DNA from: a virus
DNA: 21,503 bases
Direction: 5' to 3' (one strand)
Virus record (IMG/VR): IMGVR_UViG_3300006916_000472
Coordinates: 1-21,503 of that record
The notes beneath the pieces were generated by a model. The model was not told where the DNA came from and did not search any database. It saw nothing but the letters and a program-made list of their open reading frames with translations. Shown here one piece after another: positions 4,595 through 21,503 of the stretch; position 1 is the first letter of the stretch, and each line of letters begins with the position of its first letter. The position numbers and the translations under genes are program-made.

Positions 4595-6835
4595 TTATCT
4601 TGTCCAACCATATTTGGTTTCGTATTTTTTGTAGACTTCTTCGATTCTTGGTTCGATTTCACTGAGTATGCTTGATACTTTGCTGAATAAATCGGATGGT
4701 TTTTCGGAGCCACTTTTAAATTTTTCAAGTTTATAGTCATCTATGTCTACATAACCTGAATTTGTACTGAATGCAATAACATCCTTATCTTCAACATTAA
4801 TTGTTTTATTTATTGCATTGTATGCTTTTGTTTGAAAATCAGGAATAGAATACCCTGTAACATCTGGATTTATTATTAATCTAAATCCATCTTGTGAAGC
4901 AATAGGAACTACAAAGCCAGGAAAGTCAGAAAATTCTTCGTTTAAAGCTGTTGTTAAATTTTTTAATTCATCATTTGATAAATCATATTTTATTTCTAAA
5001 CCATTTGATAATTGTTTTTGTGCTTTATAAACAGGTCGATGGTAAGCAACAGCTTCTTGTTTTAATAATTTACCTTTAATATAAGCATATGCTTCCACTA
5101 TATTTTGTGCTGATTGATCTAAGGCACTCCTTGCTTCGAAACCACCTTTTAATGTTACATTTCCAGATCCAGTAGCTGCTGGAGCAACAAATTCTGTTTG
5201 TGTTCCAGGATTAAATTCTAACTCACCTAAACTATTTTGATAAACTCCAGGAGCATCAAATTGACCTGGTGTTATTAATCCTAATCTTTTTGCAATAAGA
5301 TCTACACCATCATCATCACTTATAGCTTTTGTTAAATCAAAATGATATTCTGTTTTTATTAATGGATCAGCCGATTGATATTGTGGGAAGAAATTGTATT
5401 TAGCACCTGGTGCAGTTTCCCAAGAAATCTGTCCAACATTTTTATTTATTGCTAGTTCAAAATCATCACCAGCTAACTCTGCTATTTTTTTAGGATCACG
5501 ACCAGCTCTGATACTAGCCCAAATAGCAGCTTGTACTTGATATGGCGTCATGTTTCTTCGTTCAGCTATTTCACTAATAGTTGTTTCTATAAAATTTATT
5601 TGTGGCTGTGTTGGATTACCAGTAGTTTCATAATCAAAAGCTCTTAGTATCCATCGATCAGTTGTTATCGCTTCTTTATTAACTTTAGATGGATCAACCT
5701 CCATCATTAAATTATTATAAAAATTATTAACTTTATAACCTGGAAAATCTTTACCTTCAAATAACAGTGCTGTTGCTTTTTTATCTAAATCTGGCATTCC
5801 AGCATTTATAGGTTTACCATCTAAAAATTGATAATATGCTTTTAAAGCAGCAGCTGTATTTGGAGTAGGTGCAGCATTAGAAGAATACAAAGCAATTAAT
5901 TTAATAATTTTTTCTGCTTCATCTTTATCGCCTTGTACAGCTTGTAAAATTTTTTGACCAGATTTTTCATACCAAAATTTACCAGCATCACCTTCTACTG
6001 TTAATGTATCAACTTGATTTTTCAAATTTAATAAATCTTCTTTTGTTTTTACACTTGATGGTAAACCTTGTTGTAATTTAAATTCATCTGTTTCAGGATT
6101 AACTTTAAATCCTTGATAAGTATAATTTCCTTTTAATGCTTCAGGTGTTGCAGCTGCACCAGCATCTTTGTATTCACTTTGTACTTCTTGTAATTTATCA
6201 GGATTTTTTTTGAAGTATTTAAGCATACTAAACAAACCACCAAATAAAATACCAAGAGGTGCATCCGCAGTTACATTTTTTATTCTTGCTTCTACTTCAC
6301 TATCATCTGCATCAACTGATAAACCATCAAGAATTATTTTTGCTACTTCATTATTCTGTGCAAAGTTAGGAGCCATTTCTTTTATGGCAGATGCTAGGTT
6401 GCCATCATTTTTACCTGAGAATAAACCTACTGTAACAACTTCCGCAGCAATAATATTAGGAATGTATTTATAAACAAAAGCACCAGGGATAATATATTGA
6501 CCAGTTATTTCACCACCCATTGTGCCAATAGTATTGGCTTCAGGTTTTAAACTGTCGATTGGAATTTTAACATCCACATCCAATAAATCTTTTCCTGATT
6601 GATTTACAAAATTTTCAAACTGTTGTAGCTTGCCACCAGATGCTTCATTTAAAATTATCTTTGTATTATTATAGGCTTTGGCTAAACCAAAAACTGTGCC
6701 TTCACTAAAATTTTTTATTCCTTGACCAACTTCTTGCATCGCTTTGGTTTTTGTTTCCGCAGCTTCTATTTGATTTTGACCAAATCGTTCTAATAATCCT
6801 CTACCAAAAAAAACCTTTTTGATCGACAATAACAC
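4595..6835 (-). CDS. Large internal virion protein, probably missing its N-terminus through a frameshift
   Basis: A 746-residue frame opening at GTG 6833-6835. Position between other internal virion proteins and the 997-aa ejection protein suggests a structural or ejection role. Residues about 100-140 hold a Gly-rich hydrophobic stretch (ITGQYIIPGAFVYKYIPNII then AAEVVTVGLF) and another lies near 190-205; both could be membrane-active. Near residue 425 is an amphipathic ISEIAERRNMTPYQVQAAIW segment. I see no peptidoglycan-hydrolase motif. The start is weak: GTG, little Shine-Dalgarno, and the first ATG is not until residue 34. The preceding 76-residue frame overlaps it by 35 bases; dropping one T from the T8 run at 6806-6813 would fuse them into one protein of about 810 residues, reading QKGFFGRGLLERFGQN across the join. 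The function is not firmly recognised. Confidence 0.75.
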   Translation of the reverse strand: MLLSIKKVFFGRGLLERFGQNQIEAAETKTKAMQEVGQGIKNFSEGTVFGLAKAYNNTKIILNEASGGKLQQFENFVNQSGKDLLDVDVKIPIDSLKPEANTIGTMGGEITGQYIIPGAFVYKYIPNIIAAEVVTVGLFSGKNDGNLASAIKEMAPNFAQNNEVAKIILDGLSVDADDSEVEARIKNVTADAPLGILFGGLFSMLKYFKKNPDKLQEVQSEYKDAGAAATPEALKGNYTYQGFKVNPETDEFKLQQGLPSSVKTKEDLLNLKNQVDTLTVEGDAGKFWYEKSGQKILQAVQGDKDEAEKIIKLIALYSSNAAPTPNTAAALKAYYQFLDGKPINAGMPDLDKKATALLFEGKDFPGYKVNNFYNNLMMEVDPSKVNKEAITTDRWILRAFDYETTGNPTQPQINFIETTISEIAERRNMTPYQVQAAIWASIRAGRDPKKIAELAGDDFELAINKNVGQISWETAPGAKYNFFPQYQSADPLIKTEYHFDLTKAISDDDGVDLIAKRLGLITPGQFDAPGVYQNSLGELEFNPGTQTEFVAPAATGSGNVTLKGGFEARSALDQSAQNIVEAYAYIKGKLLKQEAVAYHRPVYKAQKQLSNGLEIKYDLSNDELKNLTTALNEEFSDFPGFVVPIASQDGFRLIINPDVTGYSIPDFQTKAYNAINKTINVEDKDVIAFSTNSGYVDIDDYKLEKFKSGSEKPSDLFSKVSSILSEIEPRIEEVYKKYETKYGWTR

Positions 6836-7031
6836 TCACACCATCTTTTGTTCCAATGGTATAATCATAATCACCATCTTTTTGTGTATCTATTTCATCA
6901 AATTTATCTTGCGGTAAATTTTTTAAAGATTCACGATGTAAATTATTATTATACAAATTATCGTAGTAATCTAAAATATCGTCTTGGGTGTAATCACCAC
7001 TCTCTATTTGTTCTTTAGTTATAGCTGTCAT
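6801..7031 (-). CDS. 76-aa frame, probable N-terminal part of the large virion protein
   Basis: It begins at the ATG complementary to 7029-7031, overlapping the end of the 548-aa gene by 17 bases, with no clear Shine-Dalgarno. The sequence (ITKEQIESGDYTQDDILDYY) is acidic and resembles the short 'E-GYs-eeIl-yl' helix pair that often opens large phage virion proteins; this is a recollection of style, not a named family. Its last residues, DQKGFFW, end at a stop one codon after the eight-base T run at 6806-6813. The next frame continues in the +1 phase at that very point. It could be a real small gene with translational coupling, the first part of a programmed +1 frameshift product, or the result of a one-base insertion or assembly error. 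Confidence 0.6.
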   Translation of the reverse strand: MTAITKEQIESGDYTQDDILDYYDNLYNNNLHRESLKNLPQDKFDEIDTQKDGDYDYTIGTKDGVSVIVDQKGFFW

Positions 7032-8661
7032 ATAATTGTATTATGTCTTTGTATTGATTGTATTGTATTTGTAAGTTGAATGCTTTTGTTTGACTTTCAT
7101 CTGTGCCTTCAGCAATTAACTCACTATACGTTTTTTGAAAATTAGATGTAAAATTTTCAGGCGTTGTATCTTCAGGTAATAAACTTTTAAAAGTACCATT
7201 AGTGTTAAGAAAACCTTGTACTGTATTTCTAATACCTTCTTTATATTCTAACTTAGCTGCTTTAATTAATTTAGGTACTTCTACTGCAAAGTTTGCATTA
7301 GGATTTGTTGTAACAAGATCATTAAACAAATCAATTGCCAGGGAAGTAACACCTGATATTATTGCTTTTGTTTCATCTTCTTTTTGACCTATAACAATAA
7401 TACCATCTCCAACACCTAAACCAAAAGCGGATCTAACTTTATTTCTAAAGTCACCTTTTAATTCTTTTCGTTTTCCATGCCATTCACCCATTACTTCATC
7501 TTGTTGAGATTTACTTAACTCTGGCATAAATTGTTGCAGCTGACTAAAGGTAACTTTAAATTCATTAATGTGACTTTTTAGTTGAGCTGTTAATGATTCA
7601 TCACCTAGAGGATTAACAAAAGGTTTAAATCCTTCTCCTGTTATAGAGCTGTCAAACCAGTTAATGTATTGATTTTTTTCTCCATCTTCAAAAACAGAGT
7701 AGGGTAATTTTTGTAGCTTATCAAATGCACCATTTCTTTCAGCTGGATCTTTTGTTGTAAATAATGTGTACAGCAATTCATCTTTCATGGCTTTATTATC
7801 TTCCATAATTTCGCTGCTTAATCTGTCTTGCAATTTAAAAGTTTCAAATTCATTATCAGAAAATTTTTCTAATACAGCTCTTGCATCTGTATCATCTAAC
7901 ATTTTTATTATTTCTTTTAAGTTAGACATACCAACAATATCTTCATCATCTAACTTTTCAATTAATTCTAATGTGAGTTGTGAATTATGACTTGCTGAAT
8001 TGCCAGAAAATACTCTTTCTAATCCAATACGAAAAGCATTTTTGTACGCATCAACTGATAATTTTAATGATTGATCTGCACCACCATAGGTTGCATAGTC
8101 TGCCAAACTTTCTGTTAAACTTAATTGTTCTGCATCAAAATCTTCACCATTTAATAACACAGCTTCACCCAGTGAATTAGACTTAACCATTGAACTTTGC
8201 TCAAACGTAATAAGATTTAATGTTTTTGTTTTTGTTAAAAAATTATTAAACAATCCATTACGCAGTGGTAAGAAATCTAAATTAACATTATTGGTGACAG
8301 ACTTTTTAATAAAATCATATTTGTAATCTTTTGTTTGTATTTCATTTAAAAGACTTACTTTTACTTTTTCATACTCATCCATCCACTTATCAGGTTCATT
8401 TTTGTATAGTTGTTGTATATTTTTTTGTGCTGTATCTAATTGCGTTTTGTAATTAATTTGTTCTTGTGCAACAATACGTTTACTTTCATTTTCAATAATA
8501 ACATTTCCAAATTTTGCAATATCCGATAATGATTTTGCTGTGGTATCTGCAATACTTGCAATAGCACCTGATGTTGATGATTGTGGTATTTGCACAACAT
8601 TTGTTGATCCAGCTTGACCAGTGACTTGTGCTTGAAAATTATAAATAGGTATTCTTGCCAT
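7015..8661 (-). CDS. Internal virion protein, 548 aa (gp15-like position)
   Basis: A mostly helical, charged protein of 548 residues with long predicted helices and no signal peptide or obvious enzymatic motif. It opens MARIPIYNFQAQVTGQAGST, the kind of extended N-terminus seen on phage internal core proteins. By order it follows the gp13-like and gp14-like genes exactly as gp15 does in T7, and it is about 200 residues shorter than T7 gp15. The expected role is a component of the internal core or ejection tunnel through the periplasm; this comes from synteny and size, since I see no diagnostic motif. The start lies two bases after the gp14-like stop, so translation is probably coupled. Confidence 0.7.
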   Translation of the reverse strand: MARIPIYNFQAQVTGQAGSTNVVQIPQSSTSGAIASIADTTAKSLSDIAKFGNVIIENESKRIVAQEQINYKTQLDTAQKNIQQLYKNEPDKWMDEYEKVKVSLLNEIQTKDYKYDFIKKSVTNNVNLDFLPLRNGLFNNFLTKTKTLNLITFEQSSMVKSNSLGEAVLLNGEDFDAEQLSLTESLADYATYGGADQSLKLSVDAYKNAFRIGLERVFSGNSASHNSQLTLELIEKLDDEDIVGMSNLKEIIKMLDDTDARAVLEKFSDNEFETFKLQDRLSSEIMEDNKAMKDELLYTLFTTKDPAERNGAFDKLQKLPYSVFEDGEKNQYINWFDSSITGEGFKPFVNPLGDESLTAQLKSHINEFKVTFSQLQQFMPELSKSQQDEVMGEWHGKRKELKGDFRNKVRSAFGLGVGDGIIVIGQKEDETKAIISGVTSLAIDLFNDLVTTNPNANFAVEVPKLIKAAKLEYKEGIRNTVQGFLNTNGTFKSLLPEDTTPENFTSNFQKTYSELIAEGTDESQTKAFNLQIQYNQYKDIIQLYDSYN

Positions 8662-12431: not shown

Positions 12432-13293
12432 ACGCTTCGTGTGCCTGAATAGAAACAACTTTTTCTTCTTCTATTCTTGTAGCTCCAAATGATGCACAGT
12501 AATAAATTTGAGTGCTGTAACCTTTGTCAGCTCTCTCATCTATTCTTGACATTACATCTTTACCAACTGCCAGTTTAATTCCGTCAGCTGCGTAAGCGAA
12601 GCATAGTCTTTTAGAAGATGCTATTGATAATCTGTTTGATACGATAAACTCAAATCCCATAAAGGTATTGACTTCACCAGTTACCAAAGCTCTGACTGTA
12701 TTAAAGTCAGCACTTGTTACAGATGTTGTTCCTAATAGGTCATCTATTTGTCGTGGTGATACAACCATGTATCTTTTGATAGATGGATCTACTGAATTAA
12801 GATCGAAAGTTCTTTTCGCAGTTCTTAATTTTGCAATAGTCAATCCGTCAGTACCACTTTCAGTTATTGCTTGTCCTCCAGGAAGTGCAGTGGAAGTTCC
12901 ACCAGACACGCCTGTAAAAGCTGTTCCTGTTGCTGCTGAGATGATTTCATCATCCATAGCTCTACCCATTGCATAAGCTGCTGCTAATGCATACGATGAA
13001 GTTGGATCAATCAGTGTTCTGATTTTATCCTGGTCATCAATTAGATCAGCATACTCATAATCTACTAAAGACACTCTACGTCTTGCGTGAGGTGTATCTA
13101 GTTGAGGAGTGTCACCATGTCGAGATGTTCTCTTTACGGCAGCGACAGAACCAATTTGTTCAAAGAAAGCATTTTTTCCCTGTACAGTTTCGCTATCAAC
13201 TTTATCTCTAAGCATTGAGCCTTTTTGTTGAGATAACATTGTAACGTTGTTACTGTACTGTTCAACAAATGCTGTAGTTATTTGTGAACTCAT
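12430..13293 (-). CDS. Major capsid protein (HK97-type fold expected)
   Basis: 287 residues. The pattern fits the phage capsid family with an N-terminal helix (SSQITTAFVEQYSNNVTMLS), the VSLVDYEYADLIDDQDKIRT segment (residues about 74-93), SYALAAAYAMGRAMDDEIIS (about 99-118), and the C-terminal domain with RYMVVSPRQIDDLL (about 172-185) and a GFEFIVSNRL strand. It lies after the scaffold gene and a small ORF, before the decoration-like and adaptor genes, as expected. A strong AAGGAG site at 13300-13305, six bases from the ATG, and a 73-base gap before the gene point to high expression. The HK97 fold is established for the family; the detailed match is my reading. Confidence 0.9.
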   Translation of the reverse strand: MSSQITTAFVEQYSNNVTMLSQQKGSMLRDKVDSETVQGKNAFFEQIGSVAAVKRTSRHGDTPQLDTPHARRRVSLVDYEYADLIDDQDKIRTLIDPTSSYALAAAYAMGRAMDDEIISAATGTAFTGVSGGTSTALPGGQAITESGTDGLTIAKLRTAKRTFDLNSVDPSIKRYMVVSPRQIDDLLGTTSVTSADFNTVRALVTGEVNTFMGFEFIVSNRLSIASSKRLCFAYAADGIKLAVGKDVMSRIDERADKGYSTQIYYCASFGATRIEEEKVVSIQAHEA

Positions 13294-13564: not shown

Positions 13565-14354
13565 TTGCTATCTCTCGAAGTTTTAACACATCATCAATAG
13601 CTTTTAGATGATTAGGATGTGATTTATTCCAATAGGGTGAACCAGGTTCCATAAATGATGCAATTTTTTCTCTTGCAGCATCTGGTGTCATAATATTTTC
13701 TTGCGGATTTGGTAAAGGTCTATCTTCACCTAATTGATCTGCAAGTTTTGCAAAACCTTTTATAAGATCAACATTGTTTCCTAAAGTTGAACCATCAGCT
13801 AATTTTGTATTATCTAATTGGTCTTTTGTAAAAACAGTTTGTGCTAATCGCATTGCAGAACTAATCTTATGAGGAAAAGCTCTACCAAATTCTTTTCTAA
13901 GATTTGCTTCCGCTTCTGCTTTATGTGCTTCAGCATCAATGACTTGATCATTACTTGCTTGTTCTTGCACACCATTATAAAATTCTACTAGCTTTTGTAC
14001 CTGGTTATTATTTAATCCAAGATCATGTGCAACTGGTTTAAAGTTATTAATTAAATCAGATGCTTCACCTTCAATTTTATATTCTTCCGCAGACGCTGGT
14101 CTACCTAGTTTATTGAAAACATCATCCCAATCTTGTTTGGTTGCATGTTCATTTGGTAAAACAATTTTATCTTTACCAATCATTTTCTGTGAATGGATAT
14201 AACTCTTTGCTAATCCAGGAACATCCTGAATAGTTTTTAAAGAGGGATCTTCTCTCAAATCTTCTGGAAGATCATTCCTCCAATCAACAGTCGTAGTTTC
14301 GACAGGCTCAGACGGAGTTTGTTGTTGTTCCGCTACCTGGTTTTCTTCTGCCAT
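13551..14354 (-). CDS. Capsid assembly scaffolding protein
   Basis: 267 residues, strongly charged and helical, as scaffolds are. It has an acidic/Gln-rich start, then WRNDLPEDLREDPSLKTIQD (residues about 25-44) and AKSYIHSQKMIGKDKIVLPN (about 49-68). These are hallmark sequences of the T7-like/podovirus scaffold family, followed by W..VF.KLGRP....EYK. The C-terminal part includes AREKIASFMEPGSPYWNKSH, a feature shared by such scaffolds near their capsid-binding end. It sits between the portal and capsid genes. Its first 47 bases overlap the Bbp19-like gene in another frame. Confidence 0.88.
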   Translation of the reverse strand: MAEENQVAEQQQTPSEPVETTTVDWRNDLPEDLREDPSLKTIQDVPGLAKSYIHSQKMIGKDKIVLPNEHATKQDWDDVFNKLGRPASAEEYKIEGEASDLINNFKPVAHDLGLNNNQVQKLVEFYNGVQEQASNDQVIDAEAHKAEAEANLRKEFGRAFPHKISSAMRLAQTVFTKDQLDNTKLADGSTLGNNVDLIKGFAKLADQLGEDRPLPNPQENIMTPDAAREKIASFMEPGSPYWNKSHPNHLKAIDDVLKLREIANDTE

Positions 14355-14562
14355 GTTTATCTCCTTTTAACATTTTTTTTATAAATAGAATGACACTACG
14401 CTGACCTTCTAGGAAAGCTAAATTATTATTACTGTCATCCATTGTTGAAGAATGAATATGAAATCTATTCTCCAAATCCTCTAATATTTTTTTTCCGTTA
14501 TCGCTTTGAAAAGTAATTGCATACATTTCAATCAGCTGTTTTATTTCTTTAGGTATATCCAT
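14308..14562 (-). CDS. Bbp19-like small phage protein
   Basis: 84 residues. The core GKKILEDLENRFHIHSSTMD ... LAFLEGQRSVILFIKKML (residues about 23-66) agrees with the Bbp19 family, small phage proteins with the pattern 'GR-VL-DL-----h------------f-eGqR-v---i' encoded beside the portal. Function is not established; a head-assembly role is assumed from position. The start overlaps the portal stop by one base. The last 16 residues overlap the scaffold start in another frame and are probably not conserved. Confidence 0.7.
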   Translation of the reverse strand: MDIPKEIKQLIEMYAITFQSDNGKKILEDLENRFHIHSSTMDDSNNNLAFLEGQRSVILFIKKMLKGDKHGRRKPGSGTTTNSV

Positions 14563-16145
14563 TATTGTTTTAACGCTTTTAATGCTGGAGCAGCAGCACC
14601 AGCAGCTTCCGCTTGTTGGAGTTGTGCCTGGGCTTCCATCATTGCTTGTTGTTCTGCTTGTCGTTGTTGACGAAGCTGTGCAACTTCTTGATCACTACGC
14701 ATAATTTTTGCTGGCACACCTAAAACTTCTTGTGTGTGTTTTACAAATTTATCTACATCAACATAATCGAATACTGGTGCAAGTTGTTGTAAAGGAGCCA
14801 ACATCTCAATCATTCGTACTGATGCATTGATGTCACCACTTCTTTGTGATCTTGCAAGAGGAGAAGTATATTCGATGTCAATGATTTGACCTTGCAGCGG
14901 TTCAGGAGCTGGGGGAAACATATTTAATCTTAACATAATATTAAAACATCTTGTGATAAGAGGTTGTAACATTTCACCCTGGAGCCTTCCTAAGACTGGT
15001 GCAAGCATTCGCATCTTTTCTTCGTTACGTTGTAAAACTTCTGTTGCTGTCATATTAACTCGTTGAGCTAATAATAATTGATCAACATAAAATGCTTTAC
15101 GGATTGCATCTCTGCGTTGTTCTTCATACTGAACACCTAATCCAATATTTGCATTTGTATTAAGTGGTTCAATTCTATCTCTTGATCCTGAACGATAAAA
15201 ATTTAAACCTCCAGGAACAGTTCGTATTGGTAATATAAAACCATCATCAGGAACTAGGAGAGGGGGGTCAATAGTTTTCTGTGCAGCTTTAATTATTGTT
15301 TCTGACATTTTATTAATCATTTTAATATCTGCCAGAGCAACCATGGCTGGTGATCTTCCATACATTTCTACCGATGATTTTAAAAATCTTGGCACAACAT
15401 AAGGGAACTCATCATAGCCACCTTCACCCAATACGAAGTTTGTTTCTGGATCGCAGTAAATAGATGCAAAAGGTTTATTCAATGCATCTTGTTTTCTTGG
15501 ATCATAAATATCTCTTGGTAAAACAATATGTAATAATTCTACATCACTGTATGGATTGTTTTCATTTAACTTTGCAATCTTTTCATACTCTGTGCCAAAC
15601 ATATTGACAGCTGATCGTGCTGACATTTTAAATAAACGATACACTGTATCCACTCTACCAAATTCATTTTCCTGAATATATATTTCAGAAATATGCCTGG
15701 TTGAAAATCGTAATCCAGCTTCTTCATCTTTTTCAATTATCATTCCAGCTGTGCCAAATGTAATTAAATCTTGGTACAGTTCATGTATCTCTTGTTGAAA
15801 ATTTGATCTGTTTAGAACAATGTACATTTGGTTTGTACAATCTTCTAACCATTCCATACTTGCATCATCTAAATTTAATGCTCTGTCTTTATAGGACATT
15901 GAGAACCAGGGAGATGCAGCATTGGTAAGCATACCATGTAAGGAGGATGCTAATAGTTCCGCAGCATTAATAGCTGTGCTATCAAAAATTTTTTCTGTTC
16001 GTTTATCTCCTCTAGCTCTTTTAACAGTCACATCAGCTCTACGAGGTAAAACATAATCAGCAATCTCTTGCCAATGACTATCCCAAGTTCCTCTCTGTGA
16101 TTTTAATTGAGAAAATCTTTTTATTAATTCTTTTACATCAATCAC
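14562..16145 (-). CDS. Portal / head-to-tail connector protein (T7 gp8-like)
   Basis: 527 residues, the usual size for T7-type connectors (T7 gp8 is 536). The family signature is plain: WDSHWQEIADYVLPRR (residues 21-36), GDKRTEKIFDSTAINAAELL then ASSLHGMLTNAASPWFSM (residues about 46-84), and later VNMTATEVLQRNEEKMRMLA and LGRLQGEMLQPLITRCF. The C-terminus is Gln/Ala-rich, as usual. The protein forms the dodecameric ring at the portal vertex, through which TerL drives DNA and to which the adaptor binds. The start overlaps the stop of the glycine-rich protein by eight bases. Confidence 0.95.
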   Translation of the reverse strand: MIDVKELIKRFSQLKSQRGTWDSHWQEIADYVLPRRADVTVKRARGDKRTEKIFDSTAINAAELLASSLHGMLTNAASPWFSMSYKDRALNLDDASMEWLEDCTNQMYIVLNRSNFQQEIHELYQDLITFGTAGMIIEKDEEAGLRFSTRHISEIYIQENEFGRVDTVYRLFKMSARSAVNMFGTEYEKIAKLNENNPYSDVELLHIVLPRDIYDPRKQDALNKPFASIYCDPETNFVLGEGGYDEFPYVVPRFLKSSVEMYGRSPAMVALADIKMINKMSETIIKAAQKTIDPPLLVPDDGFILPIRTVPGGLNFYRSGSRDRIEPLNTNANIGLGVQYEEQRRDAIRKAFYVDQLLLAQRVNMTATEVLQRNEEKMRMLAPVLGRLQGEMLQPLITRCFNIMLRLNMFPPAPEPLQGQIIDIEYTSPLARSQRSGDINASVRMIEMLAPLQQLAPVFDYVDVDKFVKHTQEVLGVPAKIMRSDQEVAQLRQQRQAEQQAMMEAQAQLQQAEAAGAAAPALKALKQ

Positions 16146-16791
16146 CTAATTTACTCCCATCTCCACCTAATATGGTTGTTTTAATATTTTCTATAACTTT
16201 GCCAGCAAATGATTGTGCTGATCTTTTCTTTGTATATTTCTTACCTTGCATTTTAGCTTCAAAGCCATCCATGTAATCTTCGTATGCTGCTTCTGGATTA
16301 GCGTAATCGGCTGCTGATTCCGCAGCTGATATTCGCATTGCTGTTGCTCCTATACCTGGCATACCAAATGATAATGCACCAGTCATAATAGCTTTAGCTT
16401 TATTTTGTGATCGTAACATTTCTTTTGATATAGCAGTTGATGTTAATACACCTTTAGAATTTCCAGTTCCCATTGCCACTCCATCTTGTGCTTGTCCTGG
16501 TGTATATTGTCCATATTTCATTTTATACCCTTCAGGAGTAAGCATAGTTCCATCACCGCCAGTTTTTTTTCCGTATCCTCGTTCTACTAATTTTTCATTA
16601 ATAGCTTTTGATACAGCACCACCATACATATTGTTTCCTGATGCAATTTCTTTTTTCTTAGCAGTATCCGCAGCTTTTGTAACTGCCACTTTATCAACTA
16701 CTCTTTGTTGTTGTTTTCTATCTCTTTCTCCACCACCATAACTTCCACCGCTACTCTTGCTGCTGTTTCTTCTGGCTGTACTTCCACCCAT
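16138..16791 (-). CDS. Gly/Ser/Lys-rich protein of unknown function, 217 aa
   Basis: It opens with a low-complexity basic region (GGSTARRNSSKSSGGSYGGG, then ERDRKQQQ), probably disordered. A central part follows with ITPEGYKMKYGQYTPGQAQDG-like sequence and a short hydrophobic stretch (AIMTGALSFGMPGIGATAMR, residues about 135-154). It ends NIKTTILGGDGSKLGD, faintly echoing the TILT/LGG ends of the two preceding small proteins. It overlaps those genes as TAATG and lies just before the portal. No family is recognised with confidence; a minor virion or assembly role is possible. Confidence 0.6.
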   Translation of the reverse strand: MGGSTARRNSSKSSGGSYGGGERDRKQQQRVVDKVAVTKAADTAKKKEIASGNNMYGGAVSKAINEKLVERGYGKKTGGDGTMLTPEGYKMKYGQYTPGQAQDGVAMGTGNSKGVLTSTAISKEMLRSQNKAKAIMTGALSFGMPGIGATAMRISAAESAADYANPEAAYEDYMDGFEAKMQGKKYTKKRSAQSFAGKVIENIKTTILGGDGSKLGD

Positions 16792-17045
16792 TAATAACCA
16801 CCCATTAATGTTGGATTAGAAATTTCTGCATCATCCGTAACCCCAGCTACAGATGTTAAGATAGTTCCTTTGTCTTTCTTTTTTTTCTTTGACATTTTAC
16901 CTTCATCATTTGGTTGTGTTGATGTTGGTTTAAGCATATTTATAGTTTTAGTTCTTGTATTGTTTGGAGCTGCTTTTAATGCTTCCATCTCATCTGTGCT
17001 TTCACCTTGATTACCAGGTATCGCTTTCATGACTGTTGCACCCAT
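16791..17045 (-). CDS. Small 'TILT' motif protein, copy 2
   Basis: 84 residues, hydrophilic, probably mostly disordered, with a Lys-rich run (SKKKKKDKG). The C-terminus GTILTSVAGVTDDAEISNPT then LMGGY is the diagnostic part: phage genomes commonly carry a small protein with a TILTg--Gltg---------TLLGg end between the terminase and portal genes. The function is unknown to me. It is a diverged tandem paralogue of the next gene upstream (17045-17269), with which it shares this end but not the N-terminal half, and it overlaps its neighbours on both sides by one base (TAATG). Confidence 0.7.
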   Translation of the reverse strand: MGATVMKAIPGNQGESTDEMEALKAAPNNTRTKTINMLKPTSTQPNDEGKMSKKKKKDKGTILTSVAGVTDDAEISNPTLMGGY

Positions 17046-17269
17046 TAGTTACCTCCTAGTAAAGTTGGTGTATTTAATTCTGCTAACGTCAGATCACCTG
17101 AGTTACCAGTTAGAATTGTAGATTTTCTACCCTTCTTTTTTTTTTCATTATTCTTTGCTTCTTCACCAGCTGCATCAATATTAGGATCATCATCAGACGG
17201 AGCTTCAGGGAGATCACTGATAGGTGGCAATGGCGGTGGCATTTCTATTTTAGGTTTTAAAAATGACAT
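17045..17269 (-). CDS. Small 'TILT' motif protein, copy 1
   Basis: 74 residues: a Pro-rich, acidic start (IEMPPPLPPISDLPEAPSDD), a Lys-rich run (NEKKKKGRK) and the C-terminal motif STILTGNSGDLTLAELNTPT then LLGGN. The motif is shared with the following gene and with a widespread family of small phage proteins found between terminase and portal. Role unknown. A GGAAAG site just after the TerL stop (near 17273-17278) supports the start; the gap to TerL is eight bases. Confidence 0.7.
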   Translation of the reverse strand: MSFLKPKIEMPPPLPPISDLPEAPSDDDPNIDAAGEEAKNNEKKKKGRKSTILTGNSGDLTLAELNTPTLLGGN

Positions 17270-17277
17270 TTTCTTTC

Positions 17278-18564
17278 CTATGCAAATACTGTGTATTCGT
17301 TTTGTGCCATCTGTTGTGGCGGTTGTTTTCCGCTTGTACCTTCTTTTAAGGAAACGGATGCAGTTCGTGCAGCATCACAAAAATGTGAACTCCAATCGTG
17401 TACTGGTTTAGAAAAAAATTTATTATTCACTGACCACTTGCGATGGTAGTGTCTAAGTGCATCTATTAATAATTCGCATTTCTTTGCATCAAAGTAAGCT
17501 CGTTGCAACATCATGCTTGTCATATGAATGCCTTCTTCTACTGGCAGCTTGGGAGCAACTTTAAAACGTACTCCTAATTGATAAGCTACCTCTCTCCTGG
17601 ATAAACCATTAGAGAAATCTCGTTGTTCGATGTCATGGGGTGCATAGTGATTGCCATACACATAATCTTTTTCATCTTTTATATATTTTATAAACCAGGG
17701 TAATCCTTCTCCAGATTTAGATAGACAATCAACAAAGTATAATTGCCTTCCGATTTCTTGAAAAAATATAATCGTGGTACTGTCACTTATTCCTAGATCC
17801 CAGGCTGTATGTACTGGGTAGCCAGGGTCTACATTTATATCTTTTATTCTGTTTTCTCCATCCAGCTTATCCATGATCTTTCCATAGATCGAACCATTAA
17901 TGGCTGCGGAGAAGTCACATTCTAGCTCTTGCCGATATTCCTCATCGGTCATGTTGTTCTTTAGCTGCTTGAGTTCTATTGGCTCTATAATATTTGTTTC
18001 ACTGGCTTTAAAAACTTTACAAAACCAGGAGGGGTCAGCTTTGGCTTTTTTATATAATTCATAGAGATAGTTCCTCGTTGATCGTGGCGTTCCAATAAAT
18101 AAACATTTTCCTTTTCTATCTGCCAAACTTGGCAATATTACTTTAGGAAAGATAGTTTCGTCTATTAGCTGCACCTCATCCATAACACAGAAATCAAAGT
18201 AGTTTCCACGCAGTGCATCAGGATTACTATCAACACCATATAAGGTTAATCTAGCTCCATTAGGAAAGTCACAACGAAGCTCAGTTTCGTTATATTTCAT
18301 TCCTGGTATTTCTTTTGTAAATTGTTTTACATAATCCCAGGCAATAGACTTAGCTTGTTTAAACTGTGGTGCTACATAAGCCATTCTTACATTTGGTAAA
18401 GTATGTGTAAAAGCAAACTTTATTAAATGTAGGATCGCACTCAGACTTTTTCCTAGTCTTCGATGTGCAATGATTACAGCGAACCTATAATCATCAAGAG
18501 CTTCATGTATTTGTCTTTGTGGTTCTCTTGGATGATATGGTATTATTATTTTTTTTTCTGACAT
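17278..18564 (-). CDS. terL: Terminase large subunit (packaging ATPase and nuclease)
   Basis: 428 residues. N-terminal ATPase: Walker A HRRLGKS (residues 34-40), Walker B with catalytic acid FDFCVMDE (123-130) and the coupling motif FIGTP (156-160). C-terminal RNase H-like nuclease: acidic residues in AWDLGISDST (Asp256), APHD (Asp311) and HDWSSHFCDAAR (Asp390/Asp397). The enzyme docks on the portal and pumps and cuts phage DNA. A GGAAAA ribosome binding site precedes the ATG at 18562-18564; the gene starts inside the end of the preceding 60-aa gene (62-base overlap). The protein is complete, with no missing motif. Its subfamily, and so its end-cutting mode, cannot be told by eye. Confidence 0.95.
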   Translation of the reverse strand: MSEKKIIIPYHPREPQRQIHEALDDYRFAVIIAHRRLGKSLSAILHLIKFAFTHTLPNVRMAYVAPQFKQAKSIAWDYVKQFTKEIPGMKYNETELRCDFPNGARLTLYGVDSNPDALRGNYFDFCVMDEVQLIDETIFPKVILPSLADRKGKCLFIGTPRSTRNYLYELYKKAKADPSWFCKVFKASETNIIEPIELKQLKNNMTDEEYRQELECDFSAAINGSIYGKIMDKLDGENRIKDINVDPGYPVHTAWDLGISDSTTIIFFQEIGRQLYFVDCLSKSGEGLPWFIKYIKDEKDYVYGNHYAPHDIEQRDFSNGLSRREVAYQLGVRFKVAPKLPVEEGIHMTSMMLQRAYFDAKKCELLIDALRHYHRKWSVNNKFFSKPVHDWSSHFCDAARTASVSLKEGTSGKQPPQQMAQNEYTVFA

Positions 18565-18685
18565 TTATTTTCCAGACTGTCTTGTCTTCTCCAATAGTGA
18601 AACCTTCTGATAAGAAATCTGCTATTCCTTTTAATTTTTTATAATCTTCTTTTGGTATCTCAGTGGATTGTTTGATTTTTGACAT
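18503..18685 (-). CDS. Small protein of unknown function before TerL, 60 aa
   Basis: I take the ATG at 18683-18685 (MSKIKQSTEIPKEDYKKLKG); the frame is open further upstream, but that part overlaps another gene and reads poorly. The core DYKKLKGIADFLSEGFTIGE then DKTVWKIN looks like a real small soluble domain. The last 20 residues (KKNNNTISSKRTTKTN) overlap the TerL start and are low-complexity. It is not recognised. Placed between the TerS-TerL gap and TerL, it may be linked to packaging, but this is position only. Confidence 0.55.
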   Translation of the reverse strand: MSKIKQSTEIPKEDYKKLKGIADFLSEGFTIGEDKTVWKINVRKKNNNTISSKRTTKTNT

Positions 18686-18857
18686 GATGATTAATACTGC
18701 TGAATGAAAAAAACTGTGCAAGATCTCTGACGAACTCCTCACATTCTTGGGTGGTATCAAAACCAGAAAATTCTATTATAATTTTTTTTTCTTTTTCGTT
18801 TATGTCTATGGTTGAATATAATTGTTCGTACATGGCTGTAGCTTCAAGATGGGACAT
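18660..18857 (-). CDS. Small protein of unknown function, up to 65 aa
   Basis: An acidic, beta/alpha-looking small protein: YSTIDINEKEKKIIIEFSGF, DTTQECEEFVRDLAQFF. Two ATG starts are possible, at 18855-18857 and 18831-18833 (MYEQL). Neither has a strong Shine-Dalgarno, and the first is directly preceded by an AT-rich stretch that looks like a -10 element (TATTATAGTATAT on the minus strand), so translation may begin at the second. It overlaps the next small gene by 26 bases. It is the first gene after the 214-base non-coding gap. No family recognised. Confidence 0.5.
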   Translation of the reverse strand: MSHLEATAMYEQLYSTIDINEKEKKIIIEFSGFDTTQECEEFVRDLAQFFSFSSINHHVKNQTIH

Positions 18858-19071
18858 ATATACTATAATACCCAGCCAGGTGTTTTTGGGGGGTACTACG
18901 CACCTAGATCTGAAAAAAAATGGCAGTAACGCTAGGCAAAATAAATATTTATCCTGGCAACGCTATACCCTTCTGGTTTCAAACACCGACATGATCCGCA
19001 GAAAACAAACAAAAAAATAAATTGCTATGGATATGCTAAGGTTTTGTTATGAGAACCTCATGATGCGTGCA
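18858..19071. other. 214-base non-coding gap between TerS and the TerL cluster
   Basis: The longest gene-free stretch here. It holds a 12-base perfect palindrome ATAAATATTTAT (18941-18952), arms GCTAGG (18931-18936) and CCTGGC (18953-18958) that pair around it with one G-T pair, two copies of AACGCTA (18928-18934 and 18959-18965), a run of six G's near 18888-18893, and an imperfect hairpin AGGTT...AACCT just after the TerS stop (about 19039-19058). Two CCWGG sites lie in it. Position and structure make it a candidate packaging (cos/pac) or regulatory site; nothing in the sequence proves either. Confidence 0.5.
18928..18965. repeat. Palindrome flanked by paired arms and direct repeats
   Basis: From outside to inside: AACGCTA direct repeats at 18928-18934 and 18959-18965, inverted arms GCTAGG/CCTGGC, and the palindrome ATAAATATTTAT at 18941-18952. 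The nesting is more ordered than the surrounding AT-rich sequence. It may bind a protein dimer, for instance TerS at a packaging start or a transcription regulator. Confidence 0.55.
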
Positions 19072-19536
19072 TTATAGTTTTTTTGGCTGGTTCAGTAATG
19101 GGTCTTTTCCATCATCCCATCCAATCTTAAAACTTATATCTCCTTTATGTTCATTCACCATCTTGTCATTGAACTGCGGTATAATCTTAGAAGCAACCCA
19201 ACGTAGATGATACAGTTTAGTATTCAACAAAGTCACATCGACATGACTTAAATTCTTATTCTTTGATAACTCTTGCATCTCTTCAAAACCTTCTTCAAGG
19301 TTCGTCAATGCACCATTCATTCTTGCTGTCTTAACCTGTGTTGCAAAGTCTTCATCATTACTCATCCAGGAGTAAACCTTCGTTACACTTGGTAAGTTAT
19401 CATCCTTACAAATCTTTGTGAGAGGTGTTCCCTCCATCAACTTGATCAAGATACTTTCCTTCAATGTACTGTCTGATTTGATCAACTGACCAGTGTCTGA
19501 AGTACTTGAGGTTTTTATATGCTTTGACTTTGCCAT
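19072..19536 (-). CDS. terS: Terminase small subunit (Sf6-type)
   Basis: 154 residues. Residues about 24-58 form the DNA-binding helix-turn-helix (TLKESILIKLMEGTPLTKIC, DDNLPSVTKVYSW), residues about 60-100 an oligomerisation region (DEDFATQVKTARMNGALTNL EEG split over this part), and residues 104-122 the family's LNTKLYHLRWVASKIIPQF segment. This is the layout of Sf6 gp1-like small terminases ('G-sl--ic-d--mPs--tvy-Wl----eF---y--Ar' then 'r---D-rkW-asKl-P----'). It recognises the packaging site and loads TerL. The ATG at 19534-19536 is needed to keep the full HTH, which means its first 131 bases overlap the HGG-motif gene in another frame. Confidence 0.85.
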   Translation of the reverse strand: MAKSKHIKTSSTSDTGQLIKSDSTLKESILIKLMEGTPLTKICKDDNLPSVTKVYSWMSNDEDFATQVKTARMNGALTNLEEGFEEMQELSKNKNLSHVDVTLLNTKLYHLRWVASKIIPQFNDKMVNEHKGDISFKIGWDDGKDPLLNQPKKL

Positions 19537-19672
19537 CTAATGTTATCTGACCTTTACTCATTCCTCCATGCAATTTACATTTACCATTCGGCATTGCTTT
19601 TGCACGGCAAGGTTGACCATCATACTTGCGTCTTGCATTGCAAAACACTTTGCGTAATGGTCGACCTACCAT
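19406..19672 (-). CDS. HGG-motif zinc-binding-like phage protein
   Basis: 88 residues from the ATG at 19670-19672 (MVGRPLRKVFCNARRKYDGQ); the frame is open to 19708, but those codons cover two hairpins and are probably untranslated. Cys11, Cys22, Cys32 and His35 (C-N..GQPC..NGKCKLH) look like a CCCH zinc site running into the HGGMSKG motif, followed by a GKVKAYKNLKYFRHW region. Phage and bacterial proteins with C-x-T--G--C---a---G-C--HGG-s-Gp are widespread, often beside terminases, and of unknown function. It should not be called an HNH nuclease: no HNH residues are present. Its C-terminal 43 codons overlap TerS out of frame. Confidence 0.7.
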   Translation of the reverse strand: MVGRPLRKVFCNARRKYDGQPCRAKAMPNGKCKLHGGMSKGQITLDGKVKAYKNLKYFRHWSVDQIRQYIEGKYLDQVDGGNTSHKDL

Positions 19673-19690
19673 GCTAAGAGAAAAGAAAGA

Positions 19691-19728
19691 TGTACTAAGT
19701 AAGTACAAAACTCAGAACTATTCTGAGT
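19691..19728. promoter_or_regulatory. Two adjacent perfect hairpins upstream of the packaging genes
   Basis: The first is TGTACT-aagta-AGTACA at 19691-19707, a six-pair stem. The second is ACTCAGAA-CTA-TTCTGAGT at 19710-19728, an eight-pair stem with a three-base loop. They lie in the 66-base gap between the DUF6362-like gene and the HGG-motif gene. On the minus strand the second is followed only by TTTTG, so it is at best a weak terminator. They could be a terminator, an RNA-processing site, or operator/packaging sites for the HTH proteins encoded on either side. Confidence 0.55.
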
Positions 19729-19738
19729 ATATCTTTCC

Positions 19739-20152
19739 TTACAACAAATTTCGTAGTTTTTGTAGTGTTTTTTTTTCATCATGTATAACAAATACTAATC
19801 GCATCAATTCATAATGTAATTTCTTGTGCATTGTTGTTCGGTGCATACCAAATTCTTTAGACAATAACTTCCAAGGATAGTTCGAAGCTCTCATCCATAT
19901 GAGCTTTCTCATCTCTACATCAGGCACATGCTGCATGATCTCTAAAATGAAATCAACTCTGGAAATACTTCTACTGTCTGGTGGTGGTAATTTTACTTTA
20001 ACATCGTGATATCCATAAGTTGTCCAGTACTCATCAGGAAAATCAACCCATGAACTCATCTTTTGTTTTCTTTGACCAGGTAATCGTTTTAATATCCTTA
20101 TACTGTCCTGAAACCATTTCCACAGCTGTGCTGTACCAATTTCTACTTGCAT
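19739..20152 (-). CDS. DUF6362-like phage protein with sigma-like HTH
   Basis: 137 residues. The pattern matches what I know of DUF6362: an N-terminal helix ending RILKRLPGQRKQKMSSWVDF (residues about 18-37), then Y-D-V--KL-PPDSRSISRVDF (residues about 50-68), and a C-terminal HTH, LIWMRASNYPWKLLSKEFGM then HRTTMHKKLHYELMRLV (residues about 83-119). The family is common in alphaproteobacterial genomes and phages near terminase genes, and its HTH resembles sigma-70 region 4-like folds. Its function is not known; a transcription or packaging-control role is plausible. The start overlaps the replication-initiator-like stop by ten bases. Confidence 0.7.
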   Translation of the reverse strand: MQVEIGTAQLWKWFQDSIRILKRLPGQRKQKMSSWVDFPDEYWTTYGYHDVKVKLPPPDSRSISRVDFILEIMQHVPDVEMRKLIWMRASNYPWKLLSKEFGMHRTTMHKKLHYELMRLVFVIHDEKKTLQKLRNLL

Positions 20153-20709
20153 AACATCTCTGCATATCTCAGTGCATTCTCTCTTGTTGTTTCTTCTTCA
20201 TAAACCAAGATCCACTGCGAAAACTGATGTCGTGATAGTTTATGCTGCATCTGTTTAATTATCTTGTTGTGTGCATTCTGTTTGTACGTCAAACCATTGT
20301 TTACTACAGCACGATAATTAGGATTACTTTTCTTTGCTAAATTCTTAACTAAAGAAGTTATCTTATATTTACTATTAGATATAGTTAGTTGAGTAGGGGG
20401 TGACGGCGGTGTCCTACTTTTTAGGACAGCTGTGTCATACTTTGTATCAATGATGTGGAAATTCGGTGTATAAAAGTTTTTACCTTTTTGTTTTACCTTA
20501 CGAATTAAATCTAAATCATTTAATCTTTTTGTACTCCGATTAATCTGTCTATCTGACAATCCTGTAATCAGCTGCAATCTTTTGTTGCTGGGGAATATTT
20601 TGCCAGTTGTTCCCATGTGATCTAACAAAGCGAAGCAAATCATTTTATCAGCTTCCGTTAAATCTTTTTTGAATATAATTATTTTGTATAGTTTCCACTT
20701 TTCAAGCAT
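20143..20709 (-). CDS. Winged-helix replication-initiator-like protein
   Basis: 188 residues. Residues about 15-80 form a winged HTH: DLTEADKMICFALLDHMGTT, IFPSNKRLQLITGLSDRQIN, RSTKRLNDLDLIRKV. This is the 'fPS---La---G-s-rtv-r-i--L---glI' pattern of HTH_36-type phage and plasmid replication proteins. A Pro-rich linker (SRTPPSPPTQ) leads to a basic C-terminal region with HKLSRHQFSQWILVYEEETT that may bind a partner such as a helicase or loader. The neighbours (early-type small genes on one side, packaging on the other) fit an early replication or regulatory gene. A transcription factor is the main alternative. It overlaps the preceding gene by 31 bases. Confidence 0.6.
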   Translation of the reverse strand: MLEKWKLYKIIIFKKDLTEADKMICFALLDHMGTTGKIFPSNKRLQLITGLSDRQINRSTKRLNDLDLIRKVKQKGKNFYTPNFHIIDTKYDTAVLKSRTPPSPPTQLTISNSKYKITSLVKNLAKKSNPNYRAVVNNGLTYKQNAHNKIIKQMQHKLSRHQFSQWILVYEEETTRENALRYAEMLCK

Positions 20710-20873
20710 GTTTTCTCAGCTGAAACTAAACAATCTCTTTCATAGCCAAACCAAGTAACTCCAACTTCTTGACAAATCATCATGTACCTAGTGGCAATAG
20801 TATAAACAAATGCATCAGATACCTGTTGTGGTTTGATCTCAGTTGGTTTTTCTAATTGTTGTTGTTGTTTCAA
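20679..20873 (-). CDS. Small protein of unknown function, 64 aa
   Basis: It starts with a Gln-rich stretch (MKQQQQLEKPTEIKPQQVSD) followed by a helical part containing AFVYTIATRYMMICQEVGVT then WFGYERDCLV. A strong GGAGAAGGAGAG ribosome binding site (complement of about 20881-20892) makes it very likely to be translated. It lies between an unknown gene and the replication-initiator-like gene, overlapping each by about 31-35 bases, so it belongs to the early leftward operon. It is not recognised. Confidence 0.65.
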   Translation of the reverse strand: MKQQQQLEKPTEIKPQQVSDAFVYTIATRYMMICQEVGVTWFGYERDCLVSAEKTCLKSGNYTK

Positions 20874-21177
20874 ATCTCTCTCCTTCTCCGTGTAAAGTCA
20901 GCCTGTACCTCTCTACAATACAGCCTTTAGGTATGTAGATTTCACTACCTTTTTCAGCTTCATCAATGACAATGCTGCGGCTACGAAACAAAACATACTC
21001 ATCAGGATCATTAGGATTATCTAGCATCCAGCCTACATCTACGTTGACCGATGCTTTCCCATCAAACTCAGTCTTCCAGGAACGATCACCCTCTGTTGGA
21101 TCTTTCCAAACTACTAACCAACAGTCTTCAGCTAATAATTTGGCAATACCCAAGTTATCCATAACTTTTACTACCAT
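20839..21177 (-). CDS. First leftward gene after the control region; unknown function, 112 aa
   Basis: I choose the ATG at 21175-21177 (MVVKVMDNLG); another at 21160-21162 (MDNLG) is possible. The frame is open to 21294, but those codons run through the control region and read as low-complexity. The protein is acidic with a Trp-rich, beta-looking core: DCWLVVWKDPTEGDRSWKTE, VGWMLDNPNDPDEYVLFRSR, GCIVERYRLTLHGEGERFET. No family recognised. It would be the first gene expressed from the leftward promoter opposite the XRE regulator, the place where lambdoid phages keep Cro or anti-repressor-like proteins, but it has no visible HTH. No Shine-Dalgarno precedes it. Confidence 0.6.
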   Translation of the reverse strand: MVVKVMDNLGIAKLLAEDCWLVVWKDPTEGDRSWKTEFDGKASVNVDVGWMLDNPNDPDEYVLFRSRSIVIDEAEKGSEIYIPKGCIVERYRLTLHGEGERFETTTTIRKTN

Positions 21178-21261
21178 TTGTGTAGAAATATGAATAGACA
21201 GAAACTTTAGGATAGTAATAGTGTACAAATAGTGTCTATTGTGTATAAAAATAAATAAATT
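21178..21261. promoter_or_regulatory. Divergent control region with repeated GTGT operators
   Basis: The 84 bases between the two divergent genes hold an inverted pair AATAGACA (21193-21200) and TGTCTATT (21233-21240), exactly 40 bases apart. They also hold three direct GTGT elements (GTGTAC 21221-21226, GTGTCT 21232-21237, GTGTAT 21241-21246). A rightward promoter can be proposed as TGTACA (21222-21227), 16 bases, TATAAA (21244-21249). It would start transcription only a few bases before the regulator's ATG. This looks like an operator region for the XRE protein; binding is inferred. Confidence 0.5.
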
Positions 21262-21503
21262 ATGAGTATGTTCAAAAAAAGATACAACATGCATAACTTA
21301 GCAGCAATTTTTAAAAGAGAAAAAATTAACGGCAAATCCCAAAAGGGAGCTGCTGAATATTTAGGAATAGATCATCGTTCTGTTAGTAGGCACATGAAAC
21401 AAAAAAGTATTGGCTTAGATGTTTTGCATAAGTATGCAGAATATTTAGAATGCAGAGTTGAAGATTTCCTTGCGATAAAAGTTACAAGGCAGATAAATGG
21501 TTA
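21262..21503 (+). CDS. XRE/Cro-CI-type HTH regulator, N-terminal part (cut by window edge)
   Basis: The only rightward gene. From the ATG at 21262 it is open to the window end (80 residues). The HTH is clear: KSQKGAAEYLGIDHRSVSRH (residues about 25-44), then LHKYAEYLECRVEDFLAI, the 'L-kia--L-v---dLl' end of HTH_3-type domains. Alternative in-frame ATGs are at 21268 and 21289. None has a Shine-Dalgarno; with the proposed promoter the mRNA would be nearly leaderless, as for lambda cI from PRM. Divergent placement opposite the leftward phage genes suggests a repressor or early-late switch. Whether a C-terminal cleavage domain exists cannot be seen. Confidence 0.75.
   Translation, partial: MSMFKKRYNMHNLAAIFKREKINGKSQKGAAEYLGIDHRSVSRHMKQKSIGLDVLHKYAEYLECRVEDFLAIKVTRQING

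Follow-up and report, generated by a model that had tools for sequence, protein, structure and literature searches.

At the right-hand end of a viral contig, a single rightward gene encoding a helix-turn-helix (HTH) protein faces a leftward phage operon, which raises the question of whether a lysogeny switch is encoded there and, if so, which DNA the regulator recognises. The window, meaning the whole 21,503-base stretch analysed, is identical to the complete record, and because the record itself is no longer than this, the HTH gene is truncated by the contig end. The reading that we consider probable is that a temperate podovirus has its immunity region here, the left half of which falls within the window, and that in this region a CI-like repressor gene lies between two operators, each formed by a dyad and a phased array. 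The structural genes resemble those of HTVC010P-type pelagiphages, with a large terminase subunit (TerL) 52-53% identical to its counterparts, co-linear head and tail genes ordered as in HTVC034P and HTVC010P, and the same divergent early operons. Few marine viruses are as abundant as phages of this type, and the frequency with which they adopt a temperate life is debated (PMC11094077).

The locus was compared across 25 contigs, comprising the window and 24 relatives recovered in two scans (14, then 10 more). One of these, L002, is 99.97% identical to window positions 14255-21503 and extends the sequence by 2.3 kb, supplying the full 207-residue regulator, followed by a nuclease homologue and one further protein; judged by its position, the last may be an annealing protein, although its match to the annealing protein of HTVC035P is not significant. 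The closest long relative, L005, has 97.5% nucleotide identity to the window over 6.9 kb and a TerL with an identical amino acid sequence.

Within the window, the N-terminal part of the regulator gene occupies 21262..21503 on the plus strand (HTH_26, E 3.5e-6, with further matches to PHROG repressor families), starting from the ATG at 21262 and open at the contig end, which confirms the rightward HTH gene of the first-pass annotation. The 84-base gap reported there does exist, measuring 85 bases from the ATG at 21176, but becomes 99 bases when taken from the leftward start conserved among relatives, an ATG or GTG followed by GAT at 21160-21162. It had also been observed that the regulator lacks a Shine-Dalgarno sequence, which holds in the window for both candidate starts (21262 and 21289), and suggested that the gene may be leaderless. 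The latter is doubtful, because translation may begin at the in-frame Met-His ATG at 21289, which is invariant in all 18 loci examined and is preceded by a Shine-Dalgarno-like AGG or GGA in 11 of them, whereas the first ATG has such a sequence in five of 18; a leaderless start at 21262 is possible, but is not the favoured option.

The HTH_26 match scores 27.6 bits in the window's regulator (cut-off 22) and 29.2 bits in that of L009, identifying an N-terminal domain of the Cro/C1 type, and the complete protein read in L002 adds a C-terminal domain to this. Across the alignment, the other 15 regulators are 37-85% identical to that of L002, and many HTH residues, including most of the motif HRSVSRH, are invariant even though overall identity drops to 37%, a pattern that fits a single operator common to the relatives. 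Among phage records, an 80-residue HTH query returned four at E<=1 (best 3e-3) and the 207-residue query two at E<=0.1 (best 0.07), and a sequence profile searched against the PDB reached E 0.03 at best. An AlphaFold2 model built from 16 sequences (pLDDT 85.7) assigns the HTH helices to residues 13-62, followed by an all-beta domain, and the best solved structures matched by the whole model in Foldseek are a lambda-186 hybrid repressor (E 4.7e-6) and coliphage 186 CI (E 2e-4). When the C-terminal domain was modelled alone (pLDDT 91), the top match was the C-terminal domain of 186 CI (2fkd; Z 8.3, rmsd 3.5, 105 of 110 residues), ahead of LexA (Z 6-7) and of lambda CI, which together span Z 5-7, with a Z near 8 being not far above background; Foldseek found nothing for this domain at E<=0.001, with 186 entries leading the list at a best E of 0.010. 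By profile and predicted fold, the regulator is CI-like.

These properties bear on whether the HTH gene might control a toxin-antitoxin or restriction-modification system rather than immunity. The HTH alone does match C.AhdI and a putative antitoxin (3omt) in the PDB. The full-length protein, however, ends in a C-terminal domain of the repressor type, the regulator is flanked in the relatives by early phage operons, and no toxin, methylase or restriction-enzyme partner was matched among the scanned proteins next to the regulator, such that this alternative is barely credible. Self-cleaving S24 repressors, such as lambda CI and LexA, are defined by a catalytic Ser and Lys; when the C-terminal domains of 15 proteins were aligned, neither residue was among the invariant and nearly invariant columns. 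RecA-assisted self-cleavage is consequently unlikely, and some other inducer is to be expected.

The operator of this repressor had been sought in the gap by the first-pass annotation, which described a perfect 8 bp inverted repeat at 40 bp spacing and proposed that four helical turns set both halves on the same face of the DNA. The arms are present as described, AATAGACA at 21193-21200 and TGTCTATT at 21233-21240. However, some perfect 8 bp pair, at any offset, occurs in 7.0% of 3,000 versions of the gap shuffled by dinucleotide and in 6.0% of 3,000 real 85-mers from the window, and just five of the 25 contigs (the window and L002-L005) have the exact left arm next to the regulator, these also being the only ones to keep both arms. 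The inverted repeat alone is therefore no signal; it was rejected as the main operator element, although it may add a half-site, and the helical-turn geometry is not supported as the key. The three GTGT direct repeats noted at 11 and 9 base spacing fared better, being present at 21221, 21232 and 21241, with a fourth at 21180. Four such motifs in the gap are rarer than the 8 bp pair (0.7% of shuffles and none of 3,000 real 85-mers), and two of the three noted previously belong to a conserved 11 bp array. Aligning the gap among relatives thus uncovered two stronger features that had been overlooked, namely a dyad at 21170-21186 and this phased array, both of which are conserved where the inverted repeat is not. 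On comparative sequence grounds, two dyad-plus-array sites are more likely to be the operators than the inverted repeat.

The dyad has the 17 bp form TCTAC-N7-GTAGA. The copy before the leftward operon (site 1), which in the window reads ACTACCATTTGTGTAGA at 21170..21186 with one mismatch, is conserved in relatives and is probably a pair of operator half-sites; a second copy (site 2) is located just past the regulator gene and ahead of the nuclease operon, beyond the end of the window's contig. Site 1 is perfect in 12 of the 25 contigs, has one mismatch in six and is altered in seven, while of the 22 contigs that extend to site 2 (three do not), 15 have a perfect copy and seven a copy with one mismatch. 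Among 13 whole regulator-bearing records, all 16 perfect copies adjoin the regulator, with two of the records, G001 and G002 from the window's clade, having no perfect dyad; none is found in four isolated pelagiphages without the regulator (HTVC035P, Lederberg, HTVC034P and HTVC010P), and a reversed control pattern occurs once across 17 records. When one mismatch is allowed, 32 copies in 19 loci adjoin the gene and two lie elsewhere. The site 1 dyad starts 91-92 bases ahead of the first ATG in nine of these 19 loci. A variant, TCTAC-N7-GAGTA, is present in nine of the 17 loci searched, either at site 1 (L007, L012 and L034) or near the nuclease start (L006, L011, L015, L028, L029 and L033).

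Each dyad is located upstream of the first gene of an early operon and downstream of that operon's predicted promoter region, so the dyads might instead form RNA hairpins in the early-operon leaders, with a 5 bp stem and a 7-base loop, and act in antitermination or termination. We regard this as very improbable. It is the ends of the dyad that are conserved, whereas the spacer that would form the loop varies, for which reason DNA half-sites are a better fit; the stem would also be short and A+T-rich. Furthermore, in L009, L012 and L034, site 2 overlaps the -35-like hexamer of a TTTACA or CTTACA, N16, TATAAT arrangement, and so would be left out of any transcript that this promoter starts.

On its operon side, each array ends in the dyad. 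Upstream of the regulator, the sequences of 14 loci have a marked rhythm at lags of 11 (z 7.4) and 22 (z 5.8), with negative values at lags 10, 12 and 21, and downstream the same rhythm recurs in 12 loci (lag 11, z 7.0); relatedness among the loci means that these z values exaggerate their independence. Relative to a conserved upstream anchor, TG is found at -11, -22 and -33 in 12, nine and six of 14 loci, with no other offset exceeding four. In the window, the units AGGATAGTAAT, AGTGTACAAAT and AGTGTCTATTG (21209..21241) are degenerate, this clade having a site 1 array worn down to two clear units where other clades retain three or four. The most conserved DNA upstream of the regulator is TGTCTATTGTG (21233..21243), which contains a leftward -35-like TAGACA and is exact in 23 of the 25 contigs, being replaced by TGTCTATTGAT in the other two. 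The downstream array is illustrated by L030, where ACTCACAGGAA, ACTACATAAAA, ACTACGAAAAT and TCTACTTATAA are followed by AGTAGA; in this contig, L015 and L028, CTAC is repeated at 11 bp, such that the array leads into the dyad half-site.

Two promoters are predicted within this region: a putative repressor promoter, TGTACA-N16-TATAAA, at 21222..21249 on the plus strand, which is inferred from conservation and absent from the results of a sigma-70 scan, and a putative leftward early promoter, TAGACA-N18-TATCCT, at 21209..21238 on the minus strand, which the scan detected weakly. As the scan returned three promoter-like sites against 2.8 expected by chance, both predictions rest on conservation. 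The boxes bound by PhoB, OmpR and CtrA are direct repeats one helical turn apart near a promoter, and the repeats here, similarly spaced and ending near the -10-like TATAAA, resemble them. The arrays might accordingly be sites for a host response regulator of this kind acting on the repressor promoter, leaving only the dyads to the phage repressor, an arrangement compatible with the immunity-region reading; the control of alphaproteobacterial phages by CtrA is the subject of PMC9437464. This is nevertheless rather unlikely, given that the same rhythm recurs past the end of the gene, leading into the dyad half-site in L030, L015 and L028.

The leftward operon, all on the minus strand, opens with a 107-residue protein without a family match (20839..21162), followed by a 188-residue protein resembling O-like or HTH_36 replication initiators (20143..20709; PHROG 270, E 5.5e-9; HTH_36, E 1.3e-7), for which phage records gave no match at E 0.01, and a 137-residue DUF6362 protein (19739..20152; Pfam, E 1.5e-20); the small terminase subunit (19072..19536; PHROG 1482, E 1.7e-15; Sf6_terminase, E 3.8e-14) ends the early leftward genes. 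Under the immunity-region reading, the repressor would bind site 1 over the promoter region of this operon, with its O-like replication protein and small terminase, and site 2 over that of the rightward nuclease operon, binding at both sites probably being cooperative through the C-terminal domain. It would thereby silence the two lytic operons and regulate its own expression from the repressor promoter, with induction expected to occur by something other than RecA-assisted self-cleavage. Against this stand the mismatch in the window's own dyad and the altered site 1 in seven of the 25 contigs.

Such an arrangement has parallels in several known systems. In the lambda immunity region, OL-rexAB-cI-OR, the repressor gene is flanked by 17 bp operators. 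Here too, a repressor gene is situated between two candidate operator regions facing divergent early operons with O-like replication and recombination functions, and the operator length is the same, but each site has one dyad with direct repeats rather than three dyads, the C-terminal domain is unlikely to cleave itself, and no Cro or CII homologue was identified. Like P2 C, the regulator is associated with direct repeats in helical phase at an early promoter. The P2 operator consists of two 8 bp direct repeats 22 bp apart, and P2 C is described as a 99-residue protein without such a C-terminal domain (PMC4752584); by contrast, the arrays described here have 11 bp spacing, more units and a dyad. 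Coliphage 186 offers the best solved match to the fold of the C-terminal domain, again with no self-cleavage residues conserved in the present family, and similarly has several operators on both sides of its early promoters, its CI being a high-order multimer that binds five distinct operators (PMC7708051) and has been described as a wheel-like 14-mer (PMC8053113). The two differ in that sequence identity to 186 CI is about 8%, the half-sites are TCTAC with 11 bp direct-repeat arrays, and the genome is that of a podovirus; no Tum-like antirepressor was identified.

Whether such a switch serves lysogeny depends on genes beyond the contig end. The first-pass annotation was correct that the window has no integrase: it stops inside the regulator gene, before the position at which an integrase would lie, and for the same reason lacks site 2. 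L002 extends it rightward by 2.3 kb. L005 carries a tyrosine integrase, a tRNA-Ser and an att-like core. Such an integrase is encoded in seven of 13 records of the relatives, and a complete tRNA-Ser(TGA) is present in six of 14 loci. In all six tRNA-bearing loci, 11 bp of the tRNA-Ser anticodon arm recurs upstream of int; no other exact match between the tRNA gene and the rest of the locus is longer (in L009 and L012, one other is equally long), which makes it a likely candidate for the attP core, and the integrase would insert the phage at the anticodon arm of tRNA-Ser. A comparable strategy is described for HTVC019P-group phages, with an 11 bp core at tRNA-Leu and a phage-borne tRNA replacing the broken host gene (PMC6811365). 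Many HTVC010P-type phages are stated to encode an integrase, for example the prophage PNP1 (PMC11094077), whereas PMC6811365 reports that none is present in HTVC010P-related genomes from freshwater. Searches of phage records with the integrase found only distant matches covering less than half of the query, and scans of bacterial genomes by regulator and integrase alignments returned 33 and 74 pattern stretches, none of which was confirmed as a prophage. The temperate-type switch originally proposed is nonetheless supported as the best reading, given the CI-like regulator and the contents of L005.

The core and int block is inverted relative to tRNA-Ser between the clade of L003, L005 and L014 and that of L007, L009 and L012, which carry two different tRNA-Ser sequences (L005 13604-15167; L009 14412-16028). 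In the L036 record (G013), the integrase is read as two adjoining pieces (E 6e-78 and 1e-51) in different stretches at 5933-7193, the pattern that a frameshift or sequencing error would leave.

The four isolated relatives, lacking both regulator and perfect dyads, differ in this respect from the window's group. In the HTVC035P genome, which has no annotated integrase, an interval of approximately 70 bp devoid of any regulator separates the same two early operons, and their proteins include matches to the 100-residue protein (gp14, E 3e-11), the small terminase subunit (gp13, E 1e-4) and the nuclease (gp19, E 3e-19); Lederberg likewise has no homologue of the regulator. We infer that the switch was gained or lost at an operon junction of the HTVC035P type. 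These isolates, together with the missing integrase of the window, could be taken to mean that the repressor and its sites are a remnant in a phage no longer temperate. Yet the regulator is intact in L002, L005 has the integrase, tRNA and core alongside an identical TerL, and the window simply stops too early, making this explanation quite improbable.

The repressor gene itself appears to be mosaic. On either side of it, L002 and L005 are 88-100% identical, falling to 64-79% within L002 7156-7630 (window 21410 onward); over this same segment L002 shares 80-95% identity with L009, although elsewhere the two differ by at least 37%. The window's phage therefore probably received the greater part of its repressor gene, and above all the C-terminal domain, from a different lineage, while keeping its own operators. 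It is possible, if somewhat doubtful, that a multimer of a 186-like, non-cleaved repressor reads tandem 11 bp half-sites on both sides of the gene, wrapping or bridging arrays some 0.75 kb apart to silence both early operons, and that the group swaps C-terminal domains while retaining the HTH and operators. If so, such swaps would alter the immunity type or the inducer to which the phage responds, while the DNA sites recognised would stay the same.

The role proposed for the regulator, that of a lysogeny repressor, is an ordinary one, but the family is incompletely described and its layout of operators on both sides of the gene is distinctive. Repressor, two operator regions, integrase and att-like core can all be read from sequence in one lineage, in a group of which four isolated members lack the regulator, such that the gene may serve as a metagenomic marker for temperate members and the repressor-operator pair is directly testable. 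The 11 bp arrays and the C-terminal swap in turn pose questions about how this repressor fold reads DNA and how immunity types originate.

Some further features of these genomes were observed. In L009, a small protein at 12854-13105 has a LexA-type DNA-binding domain (Pfam, E 4e-11) with no space for the LexA catalytic part, and is a possible second regulator. A gene for a 119-residue protein has changed sides of the switch (L009 13976-14335, compared with L040 4842-5234), being located in the rightward operon in L009 and represented by a relative, gp16 (E 7e-27), in the leftward operon of HTVC035P. At the opposite end of the window, the tail-fibre gene (121-1500, minus strand) contains Ala/Ser/Thr-rich repeats and has long open frames on overlapping frames too (306-839), which are most likely by-products of those repeats.
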